From the NCBI GenBank assembly GCA_025782575.1, contig JALGYY010000004.1:1-64000 (forward strand): a stretch of 64,000 nucleotides of DNA. The letters run 5' to 3'. The DNA is from a bacterium (GTDB lineage Bacteria > Orphanbacterota > Orphanbacteria > Orphanbacterales > Orphanbacteraceae). Position 1 is the stretch's first letter; each line of letters starts with the position of its first letter. Below are positions 2,078-10,724 of this stretch, piece after piece. The notes below the pieces were generated by a model. It was not told the DNA's origin. It made no database searches and saw only the letters and a list, made by a program, of their open reading frames with translations. A program made the translations under genes and the position numbers.

Positions 2078-2818
2078 TCATGATCGTATCGATTCAAATG
2101 CTAGTTTGTAGTTAAAAATGAGTTGCTTGCGGGAGGTGGAGAGTTGACTCCGAGCTAGTTGTGAGAGTGCCTCGTCGCGGATCTCGGCAGGCACACGTGC
2201 CTCCGTGACCACGTCTTCCGCCACTGCTATCACGTCTTCCAGGGATACTGAGTTCTTGAACGCCTCGAATTCGTCTTCGTGACCCGCAATTCCCGCAGTT
2301 CGAGCACTTCCTGCCAGACCTGAGTAGTGGATGATGGAAGCGTAGGGCTTCCCGAAATCTCGTCGGTCGAGATGCTTGGAAACATCCTTACCAACCGCAA
2401 GAATACCTGCGTCGGGCGTCGCGACGAGATCAATCTCTTCCTGCAACAATGCGTACCATCTGTCATAGCGCTGGGTCCTGTCACGCCCGGCGTGCTTGAC
2501 GAGCATTGCCCCTTTGGAAAAGTCTGTAATGTGGTAGCGCTGCGTTGGTTCGCAAAGATAGCGTCGAATGCAGAAATGGAGGATTTGGACCTCTATTGAG
2601 GAGAGAAAGTTTCTGACACCGGCTTCTACTCGAGCTCTTGCCTCCCCTGCAGAGCGAGCCCACCGACCCAGGGACGGCTCCATGCATATCAGAACATAGT
2701 CGACGGGCACTGGGGGTTCGGGATTCGGGAGATAGACATCTCCATCCGACTCCGCGAGTGCCTTCATGCGTTTTTCAAGGTCGTGATATGCCGCCTGAAA
2801 ACCTACGTTAGCTGGCAT
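2078..2818 (-). CDS. Uracil-DNA-glycosylase-like protein (tentative)
   Basis: A 246-residue soluble protein. It has features reminiscent of the uracil-DNA glycosylase fold: an early beta strand and loop [13 protein letters not shown] (about 40-53), [12 protein letters not shown] in the middle, [12 protein letters not shown], and IIHYSG in the place of the usual H-P/S motif. These are pattern resemblances only; the family could not be checked. Its start overlaps the end of the truncated ADP-ribosylglycohydrolase fragment by 11 bases, so it lies between the partial and the complete copy of that gene, all on the same strand. A nucleic-acid repair or defence role is possible but inferred. Confidence 0.5.
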
Positions 2819-3155
2819 TATTGGACTCCCTCGCTACTAGTGGACGGATCTGACGTAAAAACCTGAAACTGCACGCGCCGGTACTGCTCAGATAGCCCTC
2901 TTCCTGCCACCGGCAATAGCGTTCCACCTGGTCTCGCGCATCGAAGCCACTCTTCTCGATCAGGCTCGTGGCGAGACAAAGAGCCATGGAGGTGTCGTCG
3001 GTCCATTGACCCGGCTCGAGATGGAAGGGGCCTCCCCCCACCATGTCGGTCAGCGGCTCGAAACTCCCCCGGGGGCGGAATTCCACCGTCGTCCCGACCG
3101 CATCCCCCGCCGCCAGACCAAGCAGGCAGCCTCGATATCTGTCGCGTAGATCCAT
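2808..3155 (-). pseudogene. 5' fragment of an ADP-ribosylglycohydrolase gene
   Basis: This 115-codon frame repeats the first 93 or so residues of the complete gene at 995-1906 almost exactly, including [10 protein letters not shown] and the metal motif WTDDTSMAL, up to SSTGAC. It then runs into about 20 unrelated residues ([10 protein letters not shown]...) and stops. The matching DNA is roughly 2872-3155 against 1628-1906, visibly about nine bases in ten identical. The C-terminal metal-binding half is missing, so it cannot be a working hydrolase. It keeps its own start and a plausible ribosome site (AGGGGAA). It may drive translation of the next gene by overlap. It is the product of a partial duplication. 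Confidence 0.85.
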
Positions 3156-4937: not shown

Positions 4938-4966
4938 TTGACACGGTGGCGGCCAGGTCATATACT
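4938..4966 (+). promoter_or_regulatory. Sigma-70 promoter of the arsR operon
   Basis: TTGACA at 4938-4943 and TATACT at 4961-4966 are separated by exactly 17 bases, a near-consensus housekeeping promoter pointing at arsR. The start point would fall inside the operator dyad at 4967-4988, so binding there should block transcription. Confidence 0.85.
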
Positions 4967-4988
4967 TAGATACATAGGAATGTGTCTA
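4967..4988 (+). promoter_or_regulatory. ArsR operator 1
   Basis: A 22-base dyad: TAGATACAT, four bases, ATGTGTCTA. Eighteen of the 22 bases lie in the two arms, which differ at one position. It begins directly after the -10 box, the usual place for an ArsR/SmtB autoregulatory site. A related site lies at 5310-5331. Confidence 0.75.
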
Positions 4989-5005: not shown

Positions 5006-5290
5006 ATGGACGAACTCTGCTGTCTGATCTTCCAGGCGATGGCCGACAAGAACAGATTGAAAATACTCGAGCTGCTCAAAGACGACGAATTGTGCGTTTC
5101 GGACATTTGCAGACGTTTCAAGATGACTCAACCTTCAATCTCACATCATCTCGACGTTCTGAAACGAGCCGGTCTCGTTACCAGAGAGAAACGTGGGCGG
5201 GAAGTCTATTACCGCTTCAATGGGGATGCGATTGTCAAATGTTGCGGCAAGCAATTTAAAGTGTTCGATATTCTGCTGAAGAAGCGGTGA
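5006..5290 (+). CDS. ArsR-family metalloregulator
   Basis: A 94-residue winged-helix repressor of the ArsR/SmtB family, the group that leaves DNA on binding metals, arsenite or other thiophiles. It shows the canonical order ALADKNRLKILELL-like helix (here AMADKNRLKILELL), then ELCVSDICRRF, the recognition helix TQPSISHHLDVLKRAGLV and the wing REKRGREVYYRF. The ArsR box ELCVCD is here ELCVSD, but Cys pairs occur at the N terminus (ELCCL), in DIC and near the end (VKCCGK), so a thiol sensor with a non-standard ligand set is likely. ATG 5006 is preferred; GTG 4982 lies inside the operator. It opens an operon with the Cys-rich peptide and the selenoprotein. Confidence 0.88.
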   Translation: MDELCCLIFQAMADKNRLKILELLKDDELCVSDICRRFKMTQPSISHHLDVLKRAGLVTREKRGREVYYRFNGDAIVKCCGKQFKVFDILLKKR

Positions 5291-5309
5291 GTTTTTTTTC
5301 GCCAATATA

Positions 5310-5331
5310 TAGATACTCCCCTATAGGTCTA
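5310..5331 (+). promoter_or_regulatory. ArsR operator 2 (putative)
   Basis: This 22-base site has TAGATAC at its left end and GGTCTA at its right end, matching the ends of operator 1 at the same spacing. It lies between arsR and the Cys-rich peptide gene, just before that gene's ribosome site. A second binding site for the same regulator is inferred. Confidence 0.5.
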
Positions 5332-5349: not shown

Positions 5350-5514
5350 ATGTCGGAAAACAAGAAGAGCTGCTGTTGCGAGGGTTTCTCCATCGATGTC
5401 CAAGAGACAGAAAAGGGCATCACGATTAACATCCACGGAGTAGACGCCGAAGCGACGGATAAGCTTAAGAAAATTGCCACGTGCTGCGGCGACAGTCCCA
5501 AGGACTGCTGCTGA
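5350..5514 (+). CDS. Small cysteine-rich peptide in the arsR operon
   Basis: A 54-residue reading frame. It begins at ATG 5350 behind AAAGGAGGTGA (5334-5344), an essentially perfect match to the anti-Shine-Dalgarno sequence, so translation should be strong. It has seven cysteines in three clusters: CCC near residue 8, CC near 45, and a terminal DCC. The middle (FSIDVQETEKGITINIHG) looks like two beta strands. No family is recognised. The cysteine clusters and the position between a thiol-type ArsR and a redox selenoprotein suggest metal or metalloid binding, or delivery to the next gene product; this is inference. It is shorter than common gene-calling cut-offs. Confidence 0.78.
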   Translation: MSENKKSCCCEGFSIDVQETEKGITINIHGVDAEATDKLKKIATCCGDSPKDCC

Positions 5515-5601
5515 TCACACTTGAATCCGGTTGCCTGCCTCCACGCCTGTCGGGGTTACCACCCCCTCAGGCTGGAGCAGACAACGGACAGGAGGTAAGA
5601 G

Positions 5602-5880
5602 ATGCTGCCGAAAGAACAGAGTATTGCGTTCGGACGGTTTTACAAGTCTGTCAGGGAGAACGAGGTCCTCGATCCAAAAACGACGCTGCTCCTTCACTTC
5701 GCCGTGGCGATGGCGGTCGGATGTCATCCCTGAATGGAACACTACCTTGGCGTGGCCAGGGCTGAAGGTTTAACAGAAGAAGAGCGTGGTACGGCCGAGT
5801 CGATTGTGATGGCCGTCGCCGCGGGCAAAGTCCGGGCACAGCTGCAGGAAGCGCGATCGCGAAAAACAGGGTCCGGGTAG
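5602..5880 (+). CDS. Carboxymuconolactone decarboxylase-like (AhpD-fold) selenoprotein
   Basis: Read through the in-frame UGA at 5731-5733, this frame gives 92 residues with selenocysteine at 44. The motif is AVAMAVGCHP-U-MEHYLGVARAEG, which fits the AhpD/CMD pattern of a helix, C-x-x-C, x-x-H and a following GLTEEE helix, with Sec in place of the second Cys. Codons on both sides of the UGA read as one family without a gap. ATG 5602 has AGGAGG seven to eight bases upstream. A hairpin at 5745-5761 fits a bacterial SECIS element. AhpD-fold proteins with C-x-x-C/U are thiol or selenol redox enzymes; a role against arsenic, metals or peroxides is inferred from the ArsR neighbour. An ordinary caller would report two fragments or none. 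The alternative is a nonsense mutation. Confidence 0.82.
5745..5761 (+). promoter_or_regulatory. SECIS-like hairpin
   Basis: CCTTGG at 5745-5750 pairs with CCAGGG at 5756-5761 (one G-U pair) around the loop CGTGG, which carries G at its second position followed by U. The loop begins 17 bases after the UGA, inside the distance range reported for bacterial SECIS elements, and lies within the coding sequence as expected in bacteria. Confidence 0.7.
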
Positions 5881-7215: not shown

Positions 7216-7441
7216 TTTGTACCTCCACAGCTGGGCCGAATAGGCTAGCGAGCCTTGCCGGGGGGAAGTCCGAATGCAAGGAGAGCGACTCTGAGGCCTG
7301 GAACTTCGCGATGCGCTCCAGGATCCTCTATGTGACCGTACCATACGCAAATTGTCCGCCGGCCGCTATGTGAAACGAATCTTTGCTTGTCATCTTGCGT
7401 ATCGCTCATGTTATGACTTCCCGAGGACAGAGGAGACCGAT

Positions 7442-8311
7442 ATGGACTTCCTTGAGATTCGACGCCTTGTTGTTATCGCCATGTTTTCAGACGACGTTCT
7501 CTTTGAGCGCCTCGTATTGAAGGGCGGGAATGCCCTTGAGCTCATTCACCATGTGATTAATCGCGGCTCTCTCGATATCGATCTTGCGATACAGGACGAC
7601 TTCGAGGACCTTGCCGACACCAAGAAACGAATTTTCGCGGCTCTTCATGACCGCTTTGATTCTGCGGGATTTCTCGTGTTCGATGAGCGTTTTGGTCCGC
7701 GTCCAAAGGTCCTGGGACCGGACAAACCGCCTACATGGGGAGGCTACCTCGCCGAATTCAAACTCATTGCCAAAGGACCGGCGTCCAATCTTAAACAAGA
7801 GGTCGACCGGATGCGTCGTGAAGCACACACCATCGGGCCTGGGCAACTGAGGGTATTTCGAGTCGAGATAAGCAAGCACGAATTCTGTTTGGGAAAGAGA
7901 AAGGCCGACCTGGATGGGTATTCGATCTATGTCTACACGCCGGAGATGTGCGTTCTGGAGAAGTTGCGCGCGCTCTGCCAGCAAATGCCGGATTACCCGC
8001 ACACCGGGGATACGAAGCGGGCGCGGGCGCGCGACTTCTACGACATCTTCGAGACCATTGAGCAATTAGGGATCGACCTTGGTACTCCGGAGAACCTTGA
8101 GCTTTGCCGGAATATCTTTTCGGCGAAAGAGGTTCCTCTTTCGCTCCTGCAAGGGCTTGCCGATATGAGGGAGTTTCATCGGCCGGACTGGGAGCTCGTT
8201 CGACTCACTGTTCCCGGGAACCCTCGGGAATTCGACTACTACTTCAACTATATCCTTCAGGTCGTTCTTCCCAGACTAAAGCCCCTTTGGGAAGAAGAGT
8301 CGCCATCCTGA
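7442..8311 (+). CDS. AbiEii/AbiGii-type nucleotidyltransferase toxin
   Basis: A 289-residue protein of the AbiEii nucleotidyltransferase family, the toxin of type IV abortive-infection modules, which acts by adding nucleotides to tRNA or another acceptor. Residues 27-32 (KGGNAL) and 43-48 (SLDIDL) carry the G-G and D-x-D signature of the polymerase-beta-like active site. The later YTPEMCVLEKLRALCQQ and RARDFYDIFE match the C-terminal helical region of the family. ATG 7442 follows AGAGGAGACC. The partner expected upstream is absent. Instead an AbiEi-like regulator gene converges from the other strand and overlaps its last 36 bases. Confidence 0.85.
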   Translation: MDFLEIRRLVVIAMFSDDVLFERLVLKGGNALELIHHVINRGSLDIDLAIQDDFEDLADTKKRIFAALHDRFDSAGFLVFDERFGPRPKVLGPDKPPTWGGYLAEFKLIAKGPASNLKQEVDRMRREAHTIGPGQLRVFRVEISKHEFCLGKRKADLDGYSIYVYTPEMCVLEKLRALCQQMPDYPHTGDTKRARARDFYDIFETIEQLGIDLGTPENLELCRNIFSAKEVPLSLLQGLADMREFHRPDWELVRLTVPGNPREFDYYFNYILQVVLPRLKPLWEEESPS

Positions 8312-9151
8312 GTCGTATTCGGGATCTTTCATGCCGTGCTGCAGGTAGAATTCGTGCTCCAGTCCCAGCCGGCGGAGACGTTCGAACTGTTCGCGGCCAT
8401 AGCCGGCTCGCTCCATAAGGAATCCAATAGCCTGATGATAAGGATAGACGTAGTCAAGTTTCTTCAGTGTGGCAACGAGTACGTTGGACGAGGCTCGTTC
8501 TTTGGCCGTCCGATAAGCATCCAGGACGTGGAGCACTCCTCCGGCGTAAACCGGCCGGACAACAATGTCGATGAGGGTACGCTCAAGCTTCGTCACATCG
8601 AGCCTCTCCCCTCCTGGTCCCTCGCTGCTTCCGGCCTCCAGTCGCCCGGTGTTCTTTCCGCTTAGAAGCACGGCTCGATTGTCATCCCACGTGAACACGT
8701 ACTGAGATTCGCGCTGCTTCCCGGAAAAGGCGAAGTCCAGGCGCTCTTGAGAAAGCGTCGCGCCTGCGGCGCGCGGCTTGGGCGACTGCTCGTCGTTTAC
8801 GTAAAGAGTCTTTGGAATCTGCTCACTGAGACCGTGAAGGAAGAGTGCCGTTCCATGTGAGAGATAGGGGTGTTTGCCAAGGGAAAGGGCGATCTGGTAT
8901 GGCGAGGGCTCTCCCCAGACGAATCGCTTCTGACTTCGATAGGATTTCGATTCAAGCTCAATGGTTCTCAGCCGACCTTCCTCCTCGAGAAACTCAACAA
9001 TCCGTCGCAGCGAGAGCCCCGGCGAAAGACGCCAGCGGCCCCTTTCCTCAGAAATCATCTTCTGGAATTCCCGGGGCTTGAAGACTCGGTCCCCGGCTCC
9101 TTCGAAATGTGCCAGTATTCTGTCTCGTGCCTTTTCGAGCGTAGATCCCAT
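8276..9151 (-). CDS. AbiEi-family antitoxin/transcriptional regulator
   Basis: A 291-residue protein. The N-terminal region (about 1-80) has a winged-helix pattern (RVFKPREFQKMI...LSLRRIVEFLEEEGRLR), followed by the AbiEi C-terminal type core: YLSHGTALFLHGLSEQIP, the LERTLIDIVVRPVYAGG helix, and AIGFLMERAGY. AbiEi proteins repress their own promoter and neutralise AbiEii. Start 9151 is chosen because of the GAGAG ribosome site and the palindrome at 9179-9212 just upstream, which overlaps a TATATA -10 with a TTGCGC -35 seventeen bases away. Its 3' end overlaps the toxin gene antisense by 36 bases, an unusual tail-to-tail arrangement for this pair. Confidence 0.8.
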   Translation of the reverse strand: MGSTLEKARDRILAHFEGAGDRVFKPREFQKMISEERGRWRLSPGLSLRRIVEFLEEEGRLRTIELESKSYRSQKRFVWGEPSPYQIALSLGKHPYLSHGTALFLHGLSEQIPKTLYVNDEQSPKPRAAGATLSQERLDFAFSGKQRESQYVFTWDDNRAVLLSGKNTGRLEAGSSEGPGGERLDVTKLERTLIDIVVRPVYAGGVLHVLDAYRTAKERASSNVLVATLKKLDYVYPYHQAIGFLMERAGYGREQFERLRRLGLEHEFYLQHGMKDPEYDSGWRLFFPKGL

Positions 9152-9178
9152 GTTCTCTCTTTCCCGTTTCGAGCCAGA

Positions 9179-9212
9179 CCTGTCTATAAGGTATATATAC
9201 CTTATAGACAGG
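9179..9212. promoter_or_regulatory. Perfect 34-bp palindrome (operator)
   Basis: A perfect inverted repeat with no loop, left arm CCTGTCTATAAGGTATA at 9179-9195. Its centre is GGTATATATACC. It lies 28 bases before the start of the minus-strand AbiEi gene and overlaps that gene's likely -10 box, so autorepression is the natural reading. Confidence 0.85.
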
Positions 9213-9283
9213 ATCGGCGCAAGACTGTTCGACATTCTGTAGAATCAATAGGTTAGCGTGAATCTCATAGCTACTTGGCTCCC

Positions 9284-9521: not shown

Positions 9522-10333
9522 ATGGCGGCAGCTGATCAGATTGCAGGATTGACTACTCAGGGACGATATCACTTTTCCACCGCTGAGATTGCTCGGATTA
9601 TGGGGACATCCCCGTCTGCCACGCGATCGGCGCTCCGAAGACTGAGGGAGAAGGGCCTGATTGCCACTCCGCATCGCGGTTTCCATGTGATAGTAGCTCC
9701 GGAATACCGGAGCGTTGGATGTCTGCCGGCCGATCAATTCCTCGGAAACCTGATGGAGCACCTCGGGCTTTCCTACTATGTCGCCATTCTCAGCGCGGCC
9801 CGGTATCATGGGGCGGCTCACCAGCAGCCACAGATTTTTCAGGTCATGGTGCAGAAGAATCGCCCCCCCATCGAATGTGGTGATGTCCGAGTCGCTTTTG
9901 CTGCGCGCCGAAACATCGAGGAGATTCCGACCCAATCGTTCAACACATCCCGCGGTCCCGTCCTTGTATCGAGCCCTGCGGCAACAGCACTTGACCTCAT
10001 CGGGTACCCGGCACATGCCGGCGGCCTTGATCATTCAGCAACCGTGCTGGCTGAGTTATATGAGTCGCTCGATCCGAAGGAACTGGAATTCGCAGCCGCG
10101 CTTTCTCCCACTTCCTGGGCCCAGCGTCTTGGCTACGTTCTCTCGTTCATGGGGGCAAACGAACATGCCGACTCGCTTTTCCAGTTCCTTGGCCACACCC
10201 GACACGAAACAGTCTTGCTTGACCCGAGTGGCGCCGAACGGCACCCTGGATTGACGACACGCAAGTCGAACAGGATCTCATTATCAGCCGTGCCCTGGTC
10301 GAGATATTCAGCCAGGCGAAAGTCGCCAGGTGA
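9522..10333 (+). pseudogene. AbiEi-family antitoxin, frameshifted
   Basis: The gene starts at ATG 9522 behind GAGGAGGGG and encodes an AbiEi protein: winged helix STAEIARIMGTSPSATRSAL with RRLREKGLI (about 19-50), GLSYYVAILSAARYHGAAHQ, RGPVLVSSPAATALDLIGYP, and a C-terminal helical part. Near 10230-10241 the frame breaks. The open frame runs on as nonsense to 10364, while the correct ending (PWIDDTQVEQDLIISRALVE...) is in another frame and stops at TGA 10331-10333. One base appears to be missing. It could be a real mutation or a sequence error. Its toxin partner follows four bases later and is truncated. Confidence 0.75.
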
Positions 10334-10336
10334 TCC

Positions 10337-10462
10337 ATGGAAAGGCGAGAGTTCAAGCACATAGAACAGGTTTCCCAAGAGACAATCATGCCTGAGAGTC
10401 ACACGAACATACTACCCAGCCTGGAAATCGCTCAAACATCGGGGCAGGACGTAAGTAATTGA
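10337..10462 (+). pseudogene. Truncated toxin partner of the second AbiE module
   Basis: ATG 10337 starts three bases after the corrected stop of the AbiEi gene, the spacing typical of AbiEi-AbiEii pairs. The 41-residue frame begins MERREFKHIEQVSQETIMP, compatible with an AbiEii N terminus, and then runs into CAGCCTGGAAATCGCT, a sequence that belongs to a dispersed repeat also present at 13466. The catalytic domain is gone. Assignment as AbiEii rests on position and a short stretch only. Confidence 0.45.
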
Positions 10463-10552
10463 AATAAAGCGCAATAGAAGCCACTCGAAGACCGGGTGTT
10501 TTAAAAGACCGTTGACAACCTGACCAAGTCAACCGATATCAATAACAGCACA

Positions 10553-10600
10553 CCCGCCACGCCTCTGCTTAGCATGCGCAACTCTGGCGGGTTTTTCTTT
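10553..10600 (+). terminator. Rho-independent terminator (putative)
   Basis: CCCGCCA at 10553-10559 pairs with TGGCGGG at 10585-10591, followed directly by TTTTTCTTT. The loop is long (25 bases) and could fold further. It would end transcripts of the broken AbiE operon. Confidence 0.55.
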
Positions 10601-10724
10601 GTCGGCGAGGCAATTTCGTGAGGTACGTAAAGCCCCCGCTATCTTTCGAGCAACAGGCCGATCAGCTAATCGTCCGAGGCCTGAAGGCGAGGGTGGTTTA
10701 GAATCCCCTTAGATTAGAGGAGTT

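Follow-up and report, generated by a model that had tools for sequence, protein, structure and literature searches.

The proton relay of AhpD has the form Glu-x11-Cys-x-x-Cys-x3-His. AhpD of Mycobacterium tuberculosis (1gu9/1knc) combines the CMD fold with a C-x-x-C-type pair. CMD/AhpD selenoproteins with a C-x-x-U motif have been listed as predicted families (Table 1 of PMC13188914), and ArsR-like regulators and arsM have been documented near hgcAB (PMC7438021). We analysed a window of 64,000 nucleotides from a member of the Orphanbacterota (assembly GCA_025782575.1, contig JALGYY010000004.1, positions 1 to 64,000), in which an initial annotation had proposed a bacterial selenoprotein of this already described kind. 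The gene, here called CMD-U, encodes a product sharing the fold and the type of redox pair with the M. tuberculosis protein, but it has neither the Glu-x11-Cys nor the Cys-x3-His element, and it is 92 residues long against about 175. The features of the locus are collected below.

Features of the CMD-U locus (window positions; L020 is a locus in another genome)
Feature	Position	Strand	Basis
Sigma-70-like promoter, TTGACA-17-TATACT	4938..4966	+	11/12 consensus matches (consensus match only)
Predicted ArsR operator O1, TAGATACATAGGAATGTGTCTA	4967..4988	.	Directly 3' of the -10 box; motif match
arsR, ArsR/SmtB-type repressor, 94 aa	5006..5290	+	HTH_metalloreg 97.9 bits, cut-off 55
Terminator-like stem with T-run, end of arsR	5273..5299	+	Sequence; counterpart in L020
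Predicted ArsR operator O2, TAGATACTCCCCTATAGGTCTA, 5' of the Cys-rich gene	5310..5331	.	Motif match
54-aa Cys-rich ORF (CCCEG...CCGDSPKDCC), no known family	5350..5514	+	Counterpart in L020
Intercistronic hairpin, -41.6 kcal/mol, no U-tract	5515..5601	+	z -4.47, 0/200 shuffles
Ribosome-binding site AGGAGG	5590..5595	+	6 bases 5' of ATG 5602
CMD-U, 92-aa CMD-fold selenoprotein, C41-H-P-U44	5602..5880	+	Translation, Pfam, orthologues, structure model
U44 codon, UGA read as selenocysteine	5731..5733	+	55 distinct orthologues with UGA, 10 with TGC
Bacterial SECIS apical hairpin, CCUUGGC-GUG-GCCAGGG	5745..5761	+	Conservation, covariation, codon freezing

The reading frame and its product

The frame opens with ATG at 5602 and closes with TAG at 5878-5880, and codon 44 of its 92 codons is the single in-frame UGA; the initial annotation had described it in this way, including the good ribosome site. 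With the UGA translated as Sec, Pfam CMD (PF02627) matched at 38.6 bits against a gathering cut-off of 23. This match spans the UGA, and the view that conserved sequence continues beyond it held up, the conserved block being E-H/Y-Y-L-G-V-A-R. The AlphaFold model consisted of four helices with a pLDDT of 91.4, and its closest solved folds were 3bey, RclX (7y4r) and other CMD proteins, at a TM of about 0.66 and modest E-values (0.001 and above). Sequence and model together show the predicted product to be small and all-helical, with the CMD fold and a putative C41-x-x-U44 redox pair.

In the alignment with 3bey, Tyr48, which is invariant in the family, replaces the AhpD His that lies four residues past the second Cys. 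Twelve residues before the first Cys, where the relay Glu would stand, the protein has Leu29. Membership of the classical AhpD alkylhydroperoxidases was rejected, since the relay Glu and His are missing. The earlier description "AhpD-like" is hence apt for the fold and the C-x-x-U motif, but not for the catalytic residues of AhpD.

Selenocysteine decoding and the SECIS hairpin

The source assembly (4.88 Mb, 95% complete) contains the full set of genes that the initial annotation had suggested looking for: selA (525 bits), selB (379 bits), selC, the tRNA-Sec gene (72.7 bits, anticodon TCA (UCA)), and selD (379 bits), all away from the CMD-U locus. The selD gene carries an in-frame UGA of its own, in ...KAGUAAKHP.... 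A second CMD/AhpD-type gene of the same genome (COG2128-like; contig C46:43682-43819; L050/L147) has an in-frame UGA in ECRYULVHHG. Because of the selA, selB, selC and selD set and this second UGA-containing CMD gene, it is very probable that UGA is read as Sec in this organism.

The first scan yielded 22 relatives, whose genomes carry the labels Thermoanaerobaculia, Neomarinimicrobiota, Phycisphaerae and Deltaproteobacteria/Desulfuromonadales, 20 with TGA at the codon and none with Cys; it was biased to the peptide E-H-Y-L-G-V-A-R, whose patterns had located the loci. When 277 genomes of a single class were searched with a profile, a much less biased approach, about 54 strong orthologues came back, most of them with TGA. 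In all, 55 distinct TGA genes were compared with 10 TGC genes, one TTA gene and one CGA gene. The UGA orthologues came mostly from Desulfuromonadia, with others from further phyla, and kept the frame past the UGA. The 10 TGC codons align with the UGA, where the initial annotation had expected Cys. To judge from these alignments, the same UGA in 55 orthologues is not a product of chance. Cys forms made up one nested group among the Sec forms, apart from one fragmentary row of unsure place, in a tree built on few columns and with many weak forks. The TTA and CGA genes (L028 1597-1599; L038 6013-6015) retain an intact SECIS stem and represent either a recent natural loss of Sec or a sequencing error. 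Among seven genomes of the phylum examined, the six others lacked the CMD-U gene, and it is therefore sporadic in the phylum; a search of viral contigs and phages gave no relatives.

A hairpin downstream of the UGA had also been noted, with a stem of 6 bp beginning 17 bases on. The hairpin is present, but its stem has 7 bp with one U.G (arms 5745-5751 and 5755-5761) and starts at the 12th base after the UGA; the figure of 17 is closer to the GUG loop, which starts at the 19th. Its energy is unremarkable by itself (z of -1.06, and +0.71 in a longer stretch), and Rfam gave nothing meaningful on the CMD-U locus. The predicted hairpin is convincing through comparative evidence and not through energy. 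In Sec genes the six inner pairs were formed in 328/330 cells, with all six in 53/55 genes, compared with 27/60 cells and 0/10 genes for the Cys forms. The 7-bp stem was 99.2% paired on 53 distinct rows, a value reached by 0/500 shuffles, while slid versions of the stem were only 21-60% paired. Compensatory substitutions were seen in four stem pairs (C-G to U-A twice, U-A to C-G, and G-C to A-U), and RNAalifold recovered the same stem unaided. Covariation, together with the loss of the hairpin in the Cys forms, thus supports a bacterial-type SECIS, for which a check had been advised.

Codon use within the stem was nearly fixed: CTT for Leu49 in 49/52 genes (background 14%), GGC for Gly50 in 51/52 (37%), GCC for Ala52 in 48/51 (44%) and AGG for Arg53 in 35/36 (10%). 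Conserved residues outside the stem spread their codon use over several synonyms; the binomial figures for the stem codons ignore relatedness, and the contrast with neighbouring conserved codons is independent of them. The loop of the family hairpin is GUN, and the third base of the Val51 codon falls in it, where all four GTN codons are used. In the Cys genes L-G-V-A-R is replaced by LGQVE, LKQQQ or LPQAE. Since the Cys forms lack both the hairpin and this peptide, it is the SECIS that imposes L-G-V-A-R on the protein, and the family offers a natural experiment in which a change from Sec to Cys removes both the element and the peptide that it forces.

On the comparative evidence, the UGA at 5731-5733 is almost certainly decoded as Sec, and there is a high probability that the gene is a CMD-fold C-x-x-U selenoprotein. 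SelB with Sec-tRNA would read this UGA, aided by the hairpin just 3' of it, as comparison of the orthologues shows. If the UGA were a true stop followed by decaying sequence, the product would be the 43-residue ORF that ends there, and the two orthologues that have lost the UGA could be cited in favour; the conservation of the frame, the SECIS and the C-terminal half across phyla makes this very improbable. A simple stop or a pseudogene at the UGA was rejected because of that conservation. The initial annotation had named a genome lacking Sec machinery, or relatives with the frame decayed past the UGA, as grounds for abandoning its proposal, and neither was found. The analysis bears out a selenoprotein gene that is easy to overlook, from a phylum with sparse sampling.

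The ArsR locus and the neighbourhoods of the family

The arsR product has Cys pairs near both ends (DELCC and VKCCGKQ). The operator motif matched twice in the window against 0.02 matches expected; genome-wide it was not enriched (7 matches vs 10 in the control) and no regulon was defined, so support for the operators comes from their placement and not from their count. Another genome (L020) has an orthologous arsR, 67% identical and flanked by the same two predicted operators, with a terminator at the matching place after it (GGGCGCGCGCCC-TTTTTTT) and then a Cys-rich ORF at 10456-10632. A search for the Cys-rich peptide on plasmids found none. The hairpin at 5515-5601, which occurs once in the window, lies just 5' of the CMD-U ribosome site and may be a processing or regulatory element.

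The term "ArsR operon" used in the initial annotation is plausible: CMD-U would be co-transcribed with its upstream neighbours and controlled by ArsR through the predicted operators. As O2 sits between arsR and the Cys-rich gene, the Cys-rich gene and CMD-U may form a separate ArsR-controlled unit. Alternatively, CMD-U could be a real selenoprotein gene outside the ArsR regulon, its adjacency being incidental and its transcription starting or being processed in the 5515-5601 gap. The strong hairpin in that gap fits this arrangement, and so does L020, where unrelated genes separate the arsR/Cys-rich pair from the CMD-U gene over about 4 kb. Nevertheless, the window genes are on the same strand with a gap of only 87 bases, a search for a promoter in the gap found none, and in an unrelated genome, too, the two units are no more than about 4 kb apart. 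We therefore consider a place outside the regulon possible but rather unlikely. One known system that this locus resembles is the Tso operon, whose regulator TsoR (NF045707) is likewise an ArsR/SmtB-type repressor of a selenoprotein operon; the window ArsR, however, scored only 60 bits where the cut-off is 115, and no other Tso gene was seen to adjoin it.

Elsewhere in the window, a convergent AbiEii/AbiEi-type toxin-antitoxin pair was found at 7352-9235, and a second AbiEi antitoxin gene with no obvious partner at 9522-10364. A truncated copy of a neighbouring ADP-ribosylglycohydrolase gene (2808-3155 and 995-1933) points to partial duplication.

Across the family, with neighbour families named by profile scan of one example each, three settings were recognised, and they largely track the tree. 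In 18 Desulfuromonadia loci the CMD gene is directly 5' of selA, often with selB next. At about 22 loci it is flanked by an ABC-2 transporter and Hsp33, with nuo genes further on. The third setting is the clade of the window gene, which also takes in other phyla, and whose members include genes that follow hgcA and/or hgcB, or arsM. Nine loci have hgcA and/or hgcB upstream, six with Cys and three with Sec (one hgcA and one hgcB were scanned, at 451 and 132 bits), and one Cys CMD gene starts about 10 bases past arsM (361 bits). Where the CMD gene, Cys or Sec, is 3' of hgcA and/or hgcB (L094-L099, L093, L106 and L118), a Cys-rich MarR-like regulator (CCDECC) is often upstream. The one methyltransferase fusion scanned (L123) was MduS, at 643 bits, and four further candidates (L124-L127) have the same motif. 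On pDA100 of Photobacterium sp. DA100 (L143 2558-6291), an unannotated stretch carries selA-selB and then a Cys-form CMD gene, a long-branched row within the window-gene clade. Small Cys-containing ORFs ending V-P-W-(L/I)-A-I-R were seen just 5' of CMD-U in two Neomarinimicrobiota (L018 5636-5833; L144 4685-4960); a further UGA was sought at these ORFs, and they end in ordinary stops. No research paper joining hgcA and CMD was found in a literature whose coverage of selenoprotein neighbourhoods is incomplete, one review listing both separately; the hgcAB and arsM neighbourhoods are apparently unreported, on a provisional reading.

Candidate roles and comparison with known systems

CMD-U would most likely act as a selenol/thiol reductant or relay serving the handling of thiophilic metal(loid)s, and the upstream ArsR-type sensor would de-repress it. 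We put forward this metal(loid) role tentatively, because of the hgcAB and arsM neighbours of the clade, the methyltransferase fusions and the ArsR/Cys-rich setting. HgcA is absent from the window genome, and the link to methylation is therefore by clade only. The metal(loid) role also has against it that CMD-U is sporadic in the phylum and that other clades have different neighbours, selA-selB or the ABC transporter, Hsp33 and nuo genes. A more specific proposal, which we regard as doubtful, is that the Sec and Cys CMD proteins would be dedicated accessories of soft-metal(loid) methylation, acting as redox partners for HgcAB and for methyltransferases of the ArsM/MduS type, whether encoded separately or as a fused domain, with Sec and Cys switched within hgcAB loci. 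Since its members adjoin hgcAB, arsM or selAB, the family is open to testing as a possible reductant or accessory factor that bacteria would use in methylating mercury and arsenic.

Two other roles were weighed against metal(loid) handling. CMD-U could serve in oxidant defence, as an AhpD/RclX-type selenol peroxidase or reductase that clears peroxides or chloramines and takes no direct part in metal(loid) chemistry. Among the closest solved folds is RclX of Pseudomonas, a protein examined in the context of hypochlorous-acid stress, and the redox chaperone Hsp33 is encoded downstream in about 20 orthologues. The absence of the AhpD relay, with Tyr48 invariant and Leu29 in place of Glu, and the metal(loid) neighbours and ArsR of the window clade render this role unlikely. 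A part in selenium metabolism, in which CMD-U would handle reduced selenium or protect the Sec machinery, for example as a perselenide/selenide carrier for SelD, seems more unlikely still. It is the 18 Desulfuromonadia genes immediately 5' of selA, and the Cys form just 3' of selA-selB on pDA100, that suggest such a part. However, selenoprotein genes may travel with sel genes in transfer, the window genome keeps its four sel genes elsewhere, and the window clade is not sel-linked except for the long-branched Photobacterium row.

Compared with named families, CMD-U shares the Pfam CMD domain, the C-x-x-U motif and the status of a computational prediction with the CMD-like C-x-x-U selenoprotein (PF02627) of PMC13188914; that family is broadly defined and known here by its listing, and CMD-U may or may not fall in the same subfamily. 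None of the named stand-alone families passed with the window protein. The GSU3128 family, or "distant AhpD homolog" (NF041047), also consists of small stand-alone CMD proteins with C-x-x-U, but a score of 34.9 bits, where the cut-off is 110, makes CMD-U a relative and not a member. The best NCBIfam matches were the CMD domains of MduS (NF045649) and ArsM_AhpD_UU (NF041537), at 43 and 39 bits, and the family members scanned agreed in 21/21 cases. Both of these proteins carry a C-terminal CMD/AhpD domain with C-x-P-U, as a fusion to a methyltransferase, whereas CMD-U stands alone, with no N-terminal methyltransferase and with other sequence after the UGA.
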